DNA from: a virus
Length of the DNA: 28,359 nt
Virus record (IMG/VR): IMGVR_UViG_3300030331_005519
Span: 1 to 28,359 of that record
Direction: 5' to 3' (one strand)
Positions 2,025-15,291 of this stretch are shown here, one piece after another; the first letter of the stretch is position 1; the number at the start of each line of letters is the position of its first letter. A program made the position numbers and the translations under genes. The notes beneath the pieces are model-generated. The model saw only the letters and a program-made list of their open reading frames with translations. It did not search any database and was not told where the DNA came from.

Positions 2025-2219
2025 TTGAAACCGTTCGAAGAATTATTTATTGAGCCTAGAACCTGGGAGTTCAAATCTTCCAGCTCAGATAAAATATATT
2101 TAGTTACAGAAGGTAAATGGTTATTTTGTAACTGTTGGGGATATATAGCTCATAAAAAATGTAAACATATTAAACAAGTAAATGAACTCATTAATTCAGA
2201 GTCGAAAAATAGAAGTTAA
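2025..2219 (+). CDS. SWIM-type zinc-finger miniprotein (TTG start)
   Basis: A 64-residue protein whose only plausible start is TTG 2025, directly after the preceding TAA. Residues 35-48 (FCNCWGYIAHKKCKH) give Cys-x-Cys-x8-Cys-x-His, the SWIM zinc-finger pattern. SWIM domains usually bind nucleic acid or protein partners within larger proteins; here the finger is nearly the whole product. Upstream are short beta strands (WEFKSSSSDKIYLVTEGKW). It overlaps the SET-domain gene by 38 bp. A second SWIM-like miniprotein lies at 3177-3347. Zinc binding is inferred from the pattern. Confidence 0.6.
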   Translation: MKPFEELFIEPRTWEFKSSSSDKIYLVTEGKWLFCNCWGYIAHKKCKHIKQVNELINSESKNRS

Positions 2220-2568
2220 AAAAAGTAAGATTCACGGTTATGGTGTTTTTGCTACTGACAATATTTTTAAAGGAGAAATATTAGAAGAATGTCATTTTAT
2301 GTCTATTCCTTATATTAAAGATATAGCTAAAGAATATAAAGGTATATTTAATTATCCATTTTTATTTCCGATTGAAAATCCTACTGAATTAGCATGGCCT
2401 TTTGGCAACGGATGTATTTATAATTCCAGTAAAAATTGTAATGCTGATTGGTGCATTGATTCTGAAAGAAGACTATTTATTTTTACAGCAATAAAAGATA
2501 TTAAAAAAGGTGAAGAAATATGCACTAATTATGAAGATAATGTTGATTGGGTTACTAAAAATATCTAG
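2182..2568 (+). CDS. SET-domain protein (putative protein lysine methyltransferase)
   Basis: This 128-residue protein is close to a minimal SET domain. Visible motifs are SKIHGYGVFATDNIFKGE (residues 15-32, SAM-binding start of SET), YNSSKNCNADW (80-90, equivalent of the NHSC.PN pseudoknot segment) and FTAIKDIKKGEEICTNYED (101-119, with the conserved Tyr117). The Cys-rich post-SET tail is absent, as in other short viral and bacterial SET proteins. Such enzymes transfer methyl groups from SAM to lysine side chains; the substrate here is unknown. ATG 2182 overlaps the SWIM gene, and there is no later in-frame ATG before the SET core, which supports this start. A host chromatin or ribosomal protein target is speculation. 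Confidence 0.75.
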   Translation: MNSLIQSRKIEVKKSKIHGYGVFATDNIFKGEILEECHFMSIPYIKDIAKEYKGIFNYPFLFPIENPTELAWPFGNGCIYNSSKNCNADWCIDSERRLFIFTAIKDIKKGEEICTNYEDNVDWVTKNI

Positions 2569-5765: not shown

Positions 5766-7952
5766 ATGAATGGAACTTTATTTTCTTCAGACTTTGTAAT
5801 AGATGCAAATGGTAATGAAAGACTATTAGAAATCAATACTGATACTGGTTTTACTCAAGACTTTATTGATAATAATCTTTCCTTTACTGATTTTTTCTCA
5901 GTATTAAGTTCTAACAATATTACTGAAGTAGTAGTTATACATAAAGAGTTTCAAAGAGAGTTCGTAAAAAAATTAAGAACAGATTTAGAAGCTTTCGATG
6001 ATACTATTACTTTTACAGTTCAAAAAGAAAACGCAGAATCTATTTATCCAACAGCAGTAGCTGATGCTGCTAATAAATTTATATTAAGACTAGCTTATAA
6101 CGAGAATGCATTACTTGATTCAACATATGCTAAAAATAATTACAACTTATTAAAATTATTTTATGATAATGATAACTCTGGAGCAGTTACTGAATTTTAT
6201 TATTCAGGCTCAGATGGAATAGTAAACACTGTAATAGCATCTGCAAATAGCTCTTCTTTACCTGATTACGTTACTAAACCAGTAGAAGTATGGAATTCTG
6301 CTAATACTTTTTATAAGCAAGATTTCAATACATTAACTGGAAGTATAGAATCAGATGATTTTATACAAAAGTATCATCATAATACTTCAGAAGAAGAAAA
6401 TAGTAGCGTTACATCTTATAGAGTATTTTCAGTAGCATATGGTTCTAATATTGATATTCTACATTTAGGAATGTATAAGCAGATAGCTATTTTAGATATT
6501 CCTAACTCATTAACAACAGCAGCTAATGGAGCATTGGATACTAAACATTATTACGAATTTGCTTCTAATTATCCTAAATTTGATGGAGAAGGAGGAATAC
6601 CGAGTGCTGCAGCTGTATTTTTACCTTCAGGCTCTCAAATCGTTTCCAACTTAAGTGTAGGAGATGAAATAAGTTCTTTTCATGTAGAAGGATCACCAGA
6701 TGCAGATTCAGATGCAATATTAACAGATTGGAAACATCCTGGCAATGAATTACCTTCAGGTTCATTTCAAACTTCTTCTTTAGTTGAAGCTGTAAATAGT
6801 TTAAATGCTAAAAATAATATATTAGCTAAATTAGTAATGAGTAATGATGATATAGTATACTCTAGTCCTAGTACATTATTTTTGACTCATGTAACTGAAT
6901 CAAATGAATTAACTTACAAAGGAGCTTCTCATATTTACCCAGGATACTCTCTTGTAAAAAATGATGGATCTAGCATAGAAGTTTCTCAAAGTATTTTAGA
7001 AGTATACGATAGCGCTCAACAAATTTATAATTTAAATATAGAAACTACTGACCTTTATATTGTTAGTAGCTCAGGAGTATTAGTTCACAACTGCTTTGCT
7101 GCTGGTACTACGATTACAATGGCTAATGGTAGTTTAAAAGCTATAGAAGATTTAAAAGATTATGACGATGTATTATGTTGGAGTCACGCTTCAGAAGAAT
7201 TAATTTCCGGAAGAGTTGAAACAGTATCTAAAAAACTCAGCGATCAAGTTTATACTATCAAACACGGACGAGAGAAAACTTTAGTTACTGCAGAACATCC
7301 ATTTTATGTAGTTAATAAAAGTGAGTATGTTGCTGCTAAAAACTTATTAGTAGATGATATTTTTATTTCGGACGTTGGATCTGAAGTTAAAGTAAAAGAA
7401 ATCATACCTCCTGAAAAAGATGAATTTATAGAAGTTTATAACCTAGGTAACGTTTCCCCAGTCCATAATTTCTTTGCTGATGGAGTATTAGTTCATAATT
7501 TTAAATTACCTCCTGGAGGATTATGTTGTTTTGTAGAAGGTACTGAAATTAGTTTAGCTAATGAAGATATAAAAAATATAGAAGATATAGTAATTGGTGA
7601 TGAAGTATTATCTTGGAACGGAGAAGAGTTAGTAGTAAGTAAAGTAATAGATATCGAACCAACAGTAGTAGGAGATAGAGATTTATATACTATTAATGGA
7701 GAAGGAATATGTAATATCGAATTCACACCAGAGCATCCTTTCCTTACTAAACAAGGATGGAAAGCTTTAAAACCAGATGTAGAAGAATTTGGTATATTAG
7801 AACCTGGAGATGAGATAAATTGTTGCGGAGAATGGAAAGCTATTTCTTCTATAGATGTAATAGATTCTAAACCAGATCAAAGAGTATTTAACTTTACAGT
7901 AAAAGAATATCACAACTATGTTGCCAATGGTATTATAGTTCACAACAAGTAA
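5766..7952 (+). CDS. Multidomain protein with three tandem Hint (intein-like) domains
   Basis: A 728-residue protein. Residues 1-280 are unassigned; FVIDANGNERLLEINTDTGF (10-29) recalls the C-terminal D..NG..RLLEIN strand of ATP-grasp/tubulin-ligase folds, a weak hint only. Residues ~285-442, 443-578 and 588-727 are three Hint modules. Modules 2 and 3 begin CFAAGT (Cys443) and CFVEGT (Cys588), have TAEHPF (508-513) and TPEHPF (654-659), and end HNFFADGVLVHN and HNYVANGIIVHN. Module 1 ends GVLVHN (His441-Asn442) directly before Cys443, but has Phe285 where Cys1 is expected and a degraded TxxH block. Residues after HN are Cys443, Phe579 and Lys728 (the last residue). This favours cleavage-type bacterial intein-like domains over full splicing. 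It is probably expressed late. Confidence 0.8.
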   Translation: MNGTLFSSDFVIDANGNERLLEINTDTGFTQDFIDNNLSFTDFFSVLSSNNITEVVVIHKEFQREFVKKLRTDLEAFDDTITFTVQKENAESIYPTAVADAANKFILRLAYNENALLDSTYAKNNYNLLKLFYDNDNSGAVTEFYYSGSDGIVNTVIASANSSSLPDYVTKPVEVWNSANTFYKQDFNTLTGSIESDDFIQKYHHNTSEEENSSVTSYRVFSVAYGSNIDILHLGMYKQIAILDIPNSLTTAANGALDTKHYYEFASNYPKFDGEGGIPSAAAVFLPSGSQIVSNLSVGDEISSFHVEGSPDADSDAILTDWKHPGNELPSGSFQTSSLVEAVNSLNAKNNILAKLVMSNDDIVYSSPSTLFLTHVTESNELTYKGASHIYPGYSLVKNDGSSIEVSQSILEVYDSAQQIYNLNIETTDLYIVSSSGVLVHNCFAAGTTITMANGSLKAIEDLKDYDDVLCWSHASEELISGRVETVSKKLSDQVYTIKHGREKTLVTAEHPFYVVNKSEYVAAKNLLVDDIFISDVGSEVKVKEIIPPEKDEFIEVYNLGNVSPVHNFFADGVLVHNFKLPPGGLCCFVEGTEISLANEDIKNIEDIVIGDEVLSWNGEELVVSKVIDIEPTVVGDRDLYTINGEGICNIEFTPEHPFLTKQGWKALKPDVEEFGILEPGDEINCCGEWKAISSIDVIDSKPDQRVFNFTVKEYHNYVANGIIVHNK

Positions 7953-7954
7953 TT

Positions 7955-8089
7955 ATGGGATTATATAGAACACAAAATTTTGCTGCTATCAAGAATCAAA
8001 CTTCTTCAGCAGTTAGTACACAAAGACAAAATAATTTAAAAGCTATAGTAACTAATTTTATTACTTATTTTAAGGCTAAACATAGTTAG
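7955..8089 (+). CDS. Small hypothetical protein (44 aa)
   Basis: The frame ATG 7955 to TAG 8087-8089 encodes MGLYRTQNFAAIKNQTSSAV followed by a Gln/Asn-rich helix and FITYFKAKHS. It starts two bases after the Hint protein stop, so it is likely expressed with it. The product is basic and soluble with no recognised motif. It could be a partner or substrate of the Hint protein, but only position suggests this. Confidence 0.5.
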   Translation: MGLYRTQNFAAIKNQTSSAVSTQRQNNLKAIVTNFITYFKAKHS

Positions 8090-8097
8090 TAATTTAG

Positions 8098-8128
8098 TTG
8101 TTATTCTGATTATTTTTTCTTATATTTT
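8098..8128 (+). promoter_or_regulatory. Promoter TTG-N20-TATATTTT (copy 4)
   Basis: TTG 8098-8100 and TATATTTT 8121-8128 are 20 bp apart, with the conserved TTCTGAT just after TTG. ATG 8146 follows after 17 bp, the same distance as at copies 2 and 5. Confidence 0.75.
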
Positions 8129-8145
8129 AATTTAAATGTTATGTT

Positions 8146-8334: not shown

Positions 8335-8690
8335 TGAAAGATTTAAACTGGTATTATATTTTTCTAGGATTTTTAGTTACAGTCTTAGCACAAGTAGGAG
8401 CTTGGTACCAACATAATCTACAATTCAAGAATCCAAAGTACGATGAAACTTGGTGGGGTATGTATGTACTTGCTATTCCTTTAACTTATGTTTTTATACT
8501 TGCTACTAAGTATAATGTTATAGGATATGGAGGTTCAATATGGGGAGGAAGATTTGTAGGTTTTGCTTTAGGTATGTTAGTATATGCAGTTTTAATTCAA
8601 TTATACTTTAAAGAACCTTTTACTGTAAAGATAGCAGTTCAATTATTATTATGTTTTACTATTTTAGCGGTACAAGCTTTTTGGAAATAA
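8334..8690 (+). CDS. Four-TM membrane protein (118 aa)
   Basis: A 118-residue hydrophobic protein with about four membrane helices: WYYIFLGFLVTVLAQVGAWY (5-24), MYVLAIPLTYVFILATKYNV (44-63), GRFVGFALGMLVYAVLIQLY (75-94) and VKIAVQLLLCFTILAVQAFW (98-117). The layout resembles small DUF-type inner-membrane proteins; I cannot name the family. It is translationally coupled to the upstream gene. The substrate and role are unknown. Confidence 0.65.
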   Translation: MKDLNWYYIFLGFLVTVLAQVGAWYQHNLQFKNPKYDETWWGMYVLAIPLTYVFILATKYNVIGYGGSIWGGRFVGFALGMLVYAVLIQLYFKEPFTVKIAVQLLLCFTILAVQAFWK

Positions 8691-8691
8691 G

Positions 8692-8722
8692 TTGGAAATA
8701 TGCTAATTTTTTCTTATATTTA
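8692..8722 (+). promoter_or_regulatory. Promoter TTG-N20-TATATTTA (copy 5)
   Basis: TTG 8692-8694 and TATATTTA 8715-8722 are spaced by 20 bp, beginning 2 bp after the membrane gene stop. ATG 8740 follows after 17 bp. The leader holds AAAGGAAG at a normal Shine-Dalgarno distance, rare in this window. Confidence 0.8.
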
Positions 8723-8739
8723 TAGATAAAGGAAGTAAT

Positions 8740-9901: not shown

Positions 9902-9923
9902 AAAATAACTAGTAAAATAGTTG
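9895..9923 (+). promoter_or_regulatory. Inverted repeat overlapping the next promoter
   Basis: CAACTA (9895-9900) pairs with TAGTTG (9918-9923), and ACTAG (9897-9901) with CTAGT (9909-9913). The right arm contains the TTG of promoter copy 6. It could be a weak terminator for the flavoprotein gene or an operator; no long T-run follows. Confidence 0.3.
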
Positions 9924-9951
9924 CTTTTCCGGAATATATTTCGTATATTAA
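9921..9951 (+). promoter_or_regulatory. Promoter TTG-N20-TATATTAA (copy 6)
   Basis: TTG 9921-9923 and TATATTAA 9944-9951 are 20 bp apart. ATG 9975 follows after 23 bp with a leader almost identical to that of the gene at 1217. Confidence 0.75.
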
Positions 9952-9974
9952 GGTATATTAAAAAAATAAAGGTT

Positions 9975-10475
9975 ATGTATAAAAATTCAAATTCTGTTAT
10001 TTCTGGTACTGATAGTAAAAAAGCTAAAAGTGAAAAGAAAGATTGTGTAGTTAAAGCTATTGCTTCATCTACTAATGTCGACTATGATACTGCTCATAGT
10101 TGGGTAAAAGAAAACTTCGAAAGAGAAGATAAAAAAGGAACTAGTAACTGGATGATTTCTAAAAGATTCAAGAACGAAGAAATGGAAATCGGAGGTAAAA
10201 AGTTTAAAGTTAGAAAACTTAAAAACTGGGAAACTACTAATCAGTATAAACTTTATGGTGAATTAATAAATCGTCAGAAAACTGTTAAGTCTTTTAGAAA
10301 AGATAAACCTAAAGGTACTTATATGGTATTAGTTAGTAAGCATGCATTTACTATTAAAGAAGGTACTTTAATAGATAATCATGGTGAAGAATGGAGACCT
10401 ACTAGAAAGGTAATCGGAGCTTATCAGTTCTCTCCAGTTAGTAAAGAAGTTCAACTTTCCCTAGATTTTTCTTAG
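9975..10475 (+). CDS. Possible papain-like cysteine peptidase-fold protein
   Basis: I place the start at ATG 9975, behind promoter copy 6 and the AATAAAGGTT leader. A longer frame from 9921 would run through the promoter itself. The 166-residue product has DCVVKAIASSTNVDYDTAHSW (Cys24) near the N-terminus and GTYMVLVSKHAFTIKEGTLIDNHGE (His123, Asp134/Asn135) late. A D-C-V-V start with a later G-T-Y...H..-D resembles phage proteins of the papain/C39-like fold, where Cys, His and Asp form the active site. This is a pattern judgement from spacing, not a firm family match. The hairpin TTCCCTA/TAGGGAA spans its stop. Confidence 0.55.
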   Translation: MYKNSNSVISGTDSKKAKSEKKDCVVKAIASSTNVDYDTAHSWVKENFEREDKKGTSNWMISKRFKNEEMEIGGKKFKVRKLKNWETTNQYKLYGELINRQKTVKSFRKDKPKGTYMVLVSKHAFTIKEGTLIDNHGEEWRPTRKVIGAYQFSPVSKEVQLSLDFS

Positions 10476-10479
10476 GGAA
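10457..10479 (+). terminator. Hairpin across a stop codon (possible terminator or attenuator)
   Basis: TTCCCTA (10457-10463) and TAGGGAA (10473-10479) pair perfectly over 7 bp with a 9-nt loop. The TAG stop (10473-10475) is in the right arm. There is no T-run after it. The right arm is also part of the GGGAA(A)CAGTTGG flank shared by promoters, so the pairing may be incidental. Confidence 0.35.
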
Positions 10480-10482
10480 CAG

Positions 10483-10513
10483 TTGGAAGTCTGAGATATT
10501 TTTCTTATATTTA
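10483..10513 (+). promoter_or_regulatory. Promoter TTG-N20-TATATTTA (copy 7)
   Basis: TTG 10483-10485 and TATATTTA 10506-10513 are 20 bp apart, with the flank GGGAACAGTTGGAAGTCTGA close to copy 2. ATG 10542 follows after 28 bp. Confidence 0.8.
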
Positions 10514-10541
10514 AGTATATAAATCAATAATAATAAAGGTT

Positions 10542-12451: not shown

Positions 12452-12979
12452 ATGATTAACCAGGAAGTAATACTTACTAAAGAAGAATGCCAGACTATTA
12501 TAGATCTGAATCACGAGTTTAAAAGGAGTAGAGTACATTCTGGTCAATCAGAAAGAGCATTGAGTAAATCCAGAACTAGTTATGAAAGTATAATTAAATC
12601 TGAAACTATTTCAGACTTACTCCTTCCTAAATTATTAAAGTATAATATAATAAGTTTACCTGAGTATTGTAATGTATCAAGATATGTAGAAGGTCAATGG
12701 TTTGAGAAACATTCTGATGCAGGGTATGCTAATGTACATAAACGAAGATTTAAAACTTTAATAGTTCAACTATCTAACCCGAATGATTACAAAGGAGGTG
12801 AGTTAGTAATTTGGGATCAAAACGAGAATGAAACTATATCAGATACAGCAATAGGTAATATGATTTTATTTGAATCTAAGTTGCTCCATCAAGCTAATAA
12901 GATTAAAAGTGGTACAAGATATTCGTTAGTATTCTTTTTAACAACAGATAACTTTAAAATTGATAAACCTTTAATATAA
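12452..12979 (+). CDS. 2-oxoglutarate/Fe(II)-dependent oxygenase (prolyl hydroxylase-like)
   Basis: The 175-residue protein has the double-stranded beta-helix motifs of the prolyl-4-hydroxylase group. NVSRYVEGQWFEKHSDAGY holds His87-x-Asp89. YKGGELVIWD (113-122) is the conserved GG.L strand. GNMILFESKLLHQANKIKSGTRYSLVFFL holds the distal His146 and the 2-oxoglutarate-binding Arg156. The enzyme would hydroxylate a protein or small molecule using Fe(II), oxygen and 2-oxoglutarate. Related genes are common in large marine phages and their substrates are mostly unknown. It starts at the base after the upstream stop and ends 4 bp before the HAD gene. Confidence 0.85.
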   Translation: MINQEVILTKEECQTIIDLNHEFKRSRVHSGQSERALSKSRTSYESIIKSETISDLLLPKLLKYNIISLPEYCNVSRYVEGQWFEKHSDAGYANVHKRRFKTLIVQLSNPNDYKGGELVIWDQNENETISDTAIGNMILFESKLLHQANKIKSGTRYSLVFFLTTDNFKIDKPLI

Positions 12980-13776: not shown

Positions 13777-13802
13777 ATAACGGGAAATAATTAAAGAAAT
13801 AG

Positions 13803-13833
13803 TTGGATATATGAAATATTTTTACTATATTTA
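13803..13833 (+). promoter_or_regulatory. Promoter TTG-N20-TATATTTA (copy 8, leaderless)
   Basis: TTG 13803-13805 and TATATTTA 13826-13833 are 20 bp apart. The box ends 3 bp before ATG 13837 and no nearby in-frame alternative start exists, so the mRNA is predicted to begin at or next to the start codon. Confidence 0.7.
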
Positions 13834-13836
13834 AGC

Positions 13837-14112
13837 ATGAAACAAGTTAAAAAACCTTATAACCTCAATGAAGATTGTAAGCATACATTACAAGAGGTGT
13901 TTGATTATATTAAACTATCCTCTTCGCTTGATAGATCTAAAGAGGTTGTTAAACAATGGATGAGATCTAACTATGACTTTAAAAAAAGAAACATAGAAAG
14001 ATACTTCCAGAATGTAGATAGTGTTAATACCGTTGATGAGTTATTTATATACCTATTTAACTCTACCAATAAAGGGTATGTCACTAAAATGAGAATTAAT
14101 AACAATTATTAA
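13837..14112 (+). CDS. Hypothetical protein (91 aa)
   Basis: A 91-residue basic helical protein (MKQVKKPYNLNEDCKHTLQE, then SLDRSKEVVKQWMRSNYDFK). The ATG lies 3 bp after the promoter -7 box, so translation is probably leaderless. Two to three helices are likely, including one that could act as a recognition helix, but no DNA-binding family is recognised. It stands alone between two non-coding regions, with a membrane microprotein 12 bp downstream. Confidence 0.6.
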   Translation: MKQVKKPYNLNEDCKHTLQEVFDYIKLSSSLDRSKEVVKQWMRSNYDFKKRNIERYFQNVDSVNTVDELFIYLFNSTNKGYVTKMRINNNY

Positions 14113-15143: not shown

Positions 15144-15227
15144 ATGATAATTTTCTTAAAGGTAGTAGTATTATTTGTACTATTTTGGTTCGTTATGAAC
15201 AGGTGGTTCAAATATTTAGATAAATAA
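15144..15227 (+). CDS. 27-aa membrane microprotein
   Basis: The frame ATG 15144 to TAA 15225-15227 encodes MIIFLKVVVLFVLFWFVMNR and WFKYLDK: one membrane helix with a basic C-terminal flank. It follows the UVR-like gene by 16 bp. Short length makes chance possible, but composition and position match the other microproteins. Confidence 0.4.
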   Translation: MIIFLKVVVLFVLFWFVMNRWFKYLDK

Positions 15228-15239
15228 AAGGGGAAATAG

Positions 15240-15270
15240 TTGGAATTCTGCATATTTCTTCTTATATTAT
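15240..15270 (+). promoter_or_regulatory. Promoter TTG-N20-TATATTAT (copy 9)
   Basis: TTG 15240-15242 and TATATTAT 15263-15270 are 20 bp apart, with GGGAAATAGTTGGAATTCTG at the left, the same extended flank as copies 2 and 7. ATG 15292 follows after 21 bp. Confidence 0.8.
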
Positions 15271-15291
15271 GGTATATTTAAAAACGGTTAT

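Follow-up and report, generated by a model that had tools for sequence, protein, structure and literature searches.

Known Hint domains occur singly, or as inteins scattered along a gene. A protein in which several of them stand end to end raises the questions of why a single-turnover domain should be repeated, whether neighbouring copies cooperate on one bond, and whether a lysine placed directly after the terminal His-Asn pair (position +1) acts as a nucleophile. Such a protein is encoded by the stretch of DNA analysed here (hereafter, the window), a 28,359-base contig from an uncultured virus in which T4-like baseplate genes are present, and arrays of 2 to 9 copies are also found in other phages and in an archaeal protease. 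Judging from sequence comparison and predicted structure, we favour with moderate confidence the reading that this protein carries a C-terminal array of self-cleaving, possibly conjugating modules of the BIL and Hedgehog kind, fused to a distant ATP-grasp-like domain.

Architecture of the protein

The gene and its parts are located in the window as follows:

5766..7952, plus strand, gene of the 728-residue protein: N-terminal domain followed by three tandem Hint modules, ending in ...GIIVHN-K and the stop codon
5766..6593, plus strand, N-terminal domain, residues 1-276, ATP-grasp-like by structure alone
6594..7091, plus strand, Hint module 1, residues 277-442, degenerate (hhalign probability 98.2%, E 3e-14)
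7092..7499, plus strand, Hint module 2, residues 443-578 (Cys443, T508-x-x-H511, H577-N578, with Phe579 at +1)
7500..7526, plus strand, linker FKLPPGGLC, 9 residues, between modules 2 and 3
7527..7946, plus strand, Hint module 3, residues 588-727 (Cys588, T654-x-x-H657, H726-N727)
7947..7949, plus strand, Lys728, the sole residue past the last His-Asn

Pfam recognizes Intein_splicing in three stretches of the protein (E 1.2e-19) and PT-HINT at 1e-18, and NCBIfam places the intein C-terminal model TIGR01443 in three stretches and the intein N-terminal model TIGR01445 in two. The AlphaFold2 model has a mean pLDDT of 77, falling below 50 at residues 439-446, that is, at the HN442-C443 junction. 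Its best Foldseek matches, not broken down by module, are Tetrahymena BIL2, a Clostridium BIL domain and the gp41-1 intein (E 1.8e-9 to 4e-7), and phmmer matches residues 442-580, which correspond to module 2, to the BIL2 structure 6tmm. Modules 2 and 3 belong to the Hint superfamily by Pfam, TIGR and Foldseek, and module 1 only by profile-profile comparison. The three Hint modules in direct tandem reported in the preliminary description of this DNA are confirmed by Pfam, NCBIfam, Foldseek and profile-profile alignment, and all the motif positions given there are correct except for the start of module 1. The modules end in GVLVHN at N442 and N578 and in GIIVHN at N727; modules 2 and 3 start with C443-F444 and C588-F589, followed in each case by G-T, and contain T508-A-E-H511 and T654-P-E-H657, respectively; residue 579 is Phe, and Lys728 is the last residue of the protein.

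Relatives found through the N-terminal domain

A scan with the whole protein returned three full-length relatives, and a scan with an alignment about twenty. In order to avoid selecting for Hint domains, a search with the N-terminal domain only was used, in which Cys1 and the His-Asn pair played no part, and which resulted in 101 viral stretches, 80 kept loci and 62 unique proteins. The counting set also comprises 62 proteins, the window having been added and one fragment among the unique proteins left out. All the relatives found by this search come from uncultured phages. Module 1 is present in 62/62, followed by no further module in 2 proteins, by one in 26, by two in 30 and by three in 4; the triple layout first noticed in the window is that of the 30 proteins carrying module 1 plus two more.

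The modules downstream of module 1 amount to 98, located with an HMM trained on modules picked by Cys1 and His-Asn. Cys1 and the block-B His are present in 98/98 of them and the block-B Thr motif in 89/98, and 89/98 have the terminal His-Asn, namely 38/38 middle modules and 51/60 terminal ones. Eight or nine of the terminal modules are Hog-like, with Cys1 and the His and without the terminal Asn, and most of these end in SEHNFIVEDFVVSGLGDN... or near it. Since they lack His-Asn yet keep Cys1 and the His, the reaction of Cys1 would be the more universal one.

In isolated phages, tblastn searches with the whole protein, with the N-terminal domain and with two modules of the L037/L054 array returned only inteins and Hint domains in terminases, helicases and hypothetical proteins, and DNA searches gave no matches. 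In cellular genomes, the matches were to Hint domains alone, with a relative of the N-terminal domain in 0/79 kept loci.

Two more distant relatives, L035 and L038, have three Hint modules each. Among the cases considered here, only L038 combines a +1 Ser with a genuine C-extein: its last His-Asn leads, through that Ser, into 305 residues of repeats that resemble a virion adhesin. Stand-alone ORFs resembling degenerate Hint domains are found near the array gene at L003:8457-8942 and L004:13538-14044.

The degenerate first module

The hhalign values listed above for module 1 result from comparing a profile of this module in 23 relatives with a profile of their other modules, where His-Asn aligned on His-Asn. 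When tested as single sequences against a profile trained solely on the other modules, module 1 of the window scores 19.0 bits and that of L038 58.7, the best of 400 shuffled controls reaching 7.3. Many other relatives score within the shuffled range, so module 1 is a Hint domain by family evidence and not by every single sequence.

Phe285 had been proposed to occupy the Cys1 position of module 1, which is wrong by about 8 residues, as Cys1 aligns with G277; the degradation of the block-B motif was correctly recognized, TxxH being lost. The residue at the Cys1 position is Gly, Ala or Val in 61/62 relatives (Gly in 58/62), Ser in one and Cys never, and the block-F His is replaced by Asp (D429 in the window) in 61/62. 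At the end of the module, N442 is conserved in 62/62 and H441 in 59/62. The Asn is followed by Pro in nine relatives, and two proteins, L197 and L207, consist of the N-terminal domain and module 1 only and end in HN-PP..., all of which argues against cleavage by module 1 in those proteins. Module 1 may therefore be structural.

A non-catalytic role could also be imagined for the whole array, with the Hint fold serving as a beta-rich module in the virion or in an enzyme complex. This would suit a first module that is degenerate and nevertheless always there, even alone as in L197 and L207, as well as the Pro following it in nine relatives, but it would give no structural reason for the invariance of Cys1 and the block-B His in 98/98 downstream modules, and we consider it quite unlikely.

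The reading of module 1 as a class 3 intein, a class that lacks Cys1 as this module does, was rejected, given that it has no block-F Cys (IETTD). The Thr of THN, which belongs to the class 3 WCT motif, is present in 22/62 relatives and is Val in the window.

Junctions and the +1 residue

According to the preliminary description, modules 1 and 2 share a junction cysteine. In the window, these modules do meet in a direct HN|Cys junction, Cys443 being at the same time the residue after the His-Asn of module 1 and the first residue of module 2, but this does not hold as a rule, as only 14/62 relatives have such a junction (e.g., L011-L013, L161 and L174). The other junctions between modules 1 and 2 are HN-AP-C in 18/62 and HN-SP-C in 6/62, the rest having longer linkers. 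A shared Cys443 as an essential design was discarded on these counts.

The residue after the last His-Asn is Lys in 48/51 terminal modules and Arg in 3/51, and never Cys, Ser or Thr. A single Lys ends the protein in 42/51, and the tail has at most 7 residues in all 51, with a Lys within every one of them. Lacking Cys, Ser or Thr at +1 and having such short tails, these proteins have no C-extein to splice. In the window, the +1 residues Phe579 and Lys728 are not those of a class 1 intein, and neither is the setting, with no conserved-site insertion between two exteins and a single residue past the last module. What modules 2 and 3 do show is the set of features of BIL domains, i.e., Cys1, TxxH, His-Asn and no conserved +1 nucleophile.

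It could be argued that the modules are true mini-inteins that splice the protein, since intein splicing profiles recognize modules 2 and 3 and the distant relative L038 has a +1 Ser before its 305-residue C-terminal region. However, neither this protein nor any terminal His-Asn module of the 62 has a +1 Cys, Ser or Thr or a C-extein, and the modules are not set in a conserved enzyme site, which makes such a reading very improbable.

Comparison with known Hint systems

The Hedgehog Hint domain transfers its protein to cholesterol, and Hog domains have no terminal His-Asn. The window family resembles them in that C-terminal Hint modules would release an N-terminal protein and in that the terminal modules of some relatives lack His-Asn, and differs in having no sterol-recognition region (only Lys728 lies past module 3 in the window), in mostly keeping His-Asn, and in being arrayed.

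BIL domains have no +1 nucleophile and mainly cleave (PMC7664689). Types A and B are alike to the present modules in their Hint fold, Cys1, TxxH, His-Asn, missing +1 nucleophile, location in non-conserved protein regions and cleaving tendency (PMC7664689, PMC5874633). In contrast to the single BIL domains of open-access reports, two to four modules follow one another here, at the C-terminus, often with a single Lys as the last residue and always including a degenerate copy.

The closest solved structure, by both sequence and fold, is the ciliate BIL2 (6TMM/6Y75), found in polyubiquitin genes, which conjugates through an isopeptide bond (PMC8616854). Ciliate BUBL loci also carry several Hint domains per polypeptide and do not follow canonical splicing. 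However, their BIL domains are placed between ubiquitin-like domains (PMC8616854, PMC9200820), whereas those of the window family follow one another directly or across linkers of up to about 13 residues (0-13), and no ubiquitin-like domain was found in the 728-residue protein, only short linkers. Multi-intein genes, such as those of MCM or DnaB, have more than one Hint domain per ORF as well, although there the inteins occupy distinct conserved sites and are kept apart by extein sequence (PMC10643990, PMC6195587), while no functional extein separates the modules here.

The chemistry of the domain is known and the tandem architecture is apparently undescribed. The open-access literature, to which our search was confined, contains single BIL domains, BUBL loci and separate-site inteins and no description of head-to-tail Hint arrays, in agreement with the initial impression that this serial arrangement is absent from described systems.

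Proposed reactions

The chemistry and products that we infer for the array are the following. In modules 2 and 3, whose sets of catalytic residues are complete, Cys1 would form a thioester by N-S acyl shift, and the terminal Asn would cyclise. Because these modules have no +1 nucleophile and module 3 has no C-extein, they would be expected to cleave, or to hand the acyl group over to water, an amine or another nucleophile from outside, as in BIL domains and BIL2, and not to splice. The view that cleavage is likelier than splicing, already put forward for this protein, appears to be right given the missing +1 Cys, Ser or Thr and the missing C-extein, and canonical splicing is unlikely.

Module 1 would perform, at most, a cleavage at its C-terminal end via cyclisation of Asn442. 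The fragment expected to be released from modules 2 and 3 comprises residues 1-442, i.e., the ATP-grasp-like domain plus module 1, instead of the N-terminal 280 residues suggested originally, as the N-terminal edge of module 1 has nothing able to cleave. Lys728 would act as a minimal C-terminal leaving group. At the direct HN|Cys junction, the cyclisation of Asn442 and the acyl shift of Cys443 would hit the same bond, and the two reactions would be either redundant or cooperative.

The idea of a thioester passed between modules had to be abandoned for this protein. Module 1 has G277 in place of Cys1, so there is no thioester for Cys443 to take over, which excludes a relay from module 1 to module 2; with Phe579 and Lys728 at +1, neither of them a nucleophile of the required type, a relay from module 2 to module 3 is unlikely.

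Conjugation proper is a different matter. Here, the thioester at Cys1 of the last module would be attacked by an amine, from a protein Lys or from the conserved +1 Lys, and the ATP-grasp-like domain would thereby be coupled to an acceptor, in the manner of BIL2 in the polyubiquitin genes of ciliates and of Hedgehog with cholesterol. This seems possible to us, though doubtful. The best match in structure and sequence, BIL2, is reported to form Lys isopeptide bonds; the +1 residue is Lys in 48/51 and Arg in 3/51, with a Lys in every such tail; Cys1 and the block-B His are universal, His-Asn being dispensable in terminal modules; and genes for protein-modifying enzymes (2OG oxygenase, SET) are neighbours. 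Nevertheless, the +1 Lys may merely favour the cyclisation of Asn, and AT-rich genomes favour Lys. If the arrays did conjugate proteins, they would provide phages with an ATP-independent, ubiquitin-like tagging route.

Selection and module exchange

The following block has been exchanged:

7480..7925, plus strand, module-sized DNA block that shares roughly 98-100% identity with L005 and 95-100% with L006

This block coincides with module 3 and its linker, and module 3 has recently been exchanged between phages as a unit. Its DNA is 99.3% identical to that of L005, with flanks at 72-90%, and 96.7% identical to that of L006, with one amino-acid change, a dN/dS of about 0.02 and flanks at about 50%. 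Module 3, at 140 residues, is too short to accommodate a homing endonuclease domain as well, and a DNA pattern derived from it found no carriers besides two contigs already known. The dN/dS values between the window and L005 are 0.13 for the N-terminal domain, 0.15 for module 1 and 0.11 for module 2, and modules 2 and 3 inside one protein share 28-44% identity. The length of the array changes by gain, loss and exchange of modules.

These features bear on the proposal that the repetition is functionless, with ordinary BIL-type domains forming nearly neutral arrays that change size by unequal crossing over. The copy number of 0-3 beyond module 1, the exchange of module 3 as a block and the identity of up to 93% between adjacent modules in other arrays are in line with it. 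However, catalytic residues are kept in essentially all copies of divergent arrays, the low identity of modules 2 and 3 (28-44%) indicates that the arrays are long-lived, and dN/dS is about 0.1, so we regard this proposal as unlikely.

Tandem Hint arrays in other proteins

The DNA pattern for V-H-N-K-C-F-x-x-G-T was found in 13 viral stretches, two of them from contigs already known (L016/L055 of the window family, and L037/L054). Phage proteins unrelated to the window family carry arrays of 2-7 Hint modules, separated by a spacer of exactly one Lys (often HN-Lys-Cys) or by a short linker, with neighbouring modules 36-93% identical. Such phage arrays are located at L062:7328-12841 (minus strand), L037/L054, L058-L061 and L065, the host of the L037 array being a DUF4815 protein that matches PHROG 358.

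Among cellular sequences, a Thermoplasmata archaeon MAG contig (JAGGZU010000116.1, L070:159-8930) encodes a protein of 2,924 residues with subtilase and rhodanese-like domains and nine tandem Hint modules. The residue after His-Asn is mostly Thr in these modules (HNT, HNS), and on that account they are possibly splicing-competent. Shorter Hint arrays are present in L067-L069, likewise from Thermoplasmata. At 104 Hint ends from cellular loci, the +1 residue is Cys, Ser or Thr in 50 and Lys in 18, whereas it is Lys or Arg in 52/58 of the phage set, which is partly biased because some of its loci were found by the Lys-containing pattern. Tandem strings of Hint modules are widespread in phages and present in some archaea, and probably cleave or conjugate instead of splicing.

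A more far-reaching proposal, which we put forward tentatively as a rather unlikely one, is that the arrays constitute a distinct phage system for conjugation or multi-step maturation. In such a system, one Cys1 thioester after another would either couple the upstream domain (ATP-grasp-like here, virion-type proteins elsewhere) to acceptors or set it free in a timed sequence, the conserved Lys that comes after each His-Asn serving as nucleophile or as leaving group and the length of the array setting the outcome. Natural arrays might also serve as tools for cleaving or ligating proteins in a defined order.

In L042 and L041, a Hint domain with a +1 Lys lies directly before a segment, DIRLKENY..., that resembles a tail-fibre intramolecular chaperone.

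The N-terminal domain and neighbouring genes

The best Foldseek match of the N-terminal domain is YjfC (E 8e-8), followed by glutathione synthetases, YgiC and glutathionylspermidine synthetase (GspS) down to 2e-4, with a sharp drop thereafter; the TM score with YjfC is only about 0.45, and the rmsd 8. Comparing the profile of the domain with PDB and Pfam gave nothing useful, and a fold search of BFVD gave nothing. Residues D9, E22, D26, K60, R108, K171 and K184 are invariant in the 62 proteins, and N24 is found in 61 (one X). We assume that E22-x-N24, D9, K60, R108, K171 and K184 are candidate metal- or ATP-binding residues of an ATP-grasp enzyme, and we regard the domain as a putative, not a proven, distant ATP-grasp-like domain.

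Two genes of the window encode putative protein-modifying enzymes:

12452..12979, plus strand, 2OG-Fe(II) oxygenase (Pfam PF13640, E 3.7e-13), 4.5 kb from the Hint gene
2182..2568, plus strand, SET-domain protein (Pfam PF00856, E 2.7e-12), with homologues near 8 relatives

Homologues of the oxygenase are present in the flanks of 50/62 relatives, in many of them immediately following the Hint gene, and in about 25 loci they start 104-169 bases downstream of it. As marine phages often carry 2OG-Fe(II) oxygenases and the loci compared are related to one another, this synteny is suggestive at most. At L004:8984-9379, a SET-domain protein is encoded beside a 2OG-Fe(II) oxygenase whose gene comes right after the Hint gene.

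A 55-base element, AGTTGGAATTCTG...TTCTTATATTTAaGTATA, also recurs at eight scattered places in the window, in most cases immediately ahead of an ORF:

1141-1195, 2559-2613, 8080-8134, 8674-8728, 9903-9957, 10465-10519, 13785-13839 and 15222-15276, copies of the 55-base element

With a TTG about 20 bases before TATATTT, this element resembles what we take to be a phage promoter of the Bacteroidota type, which, if so, would suggest a Bacteroidota host.
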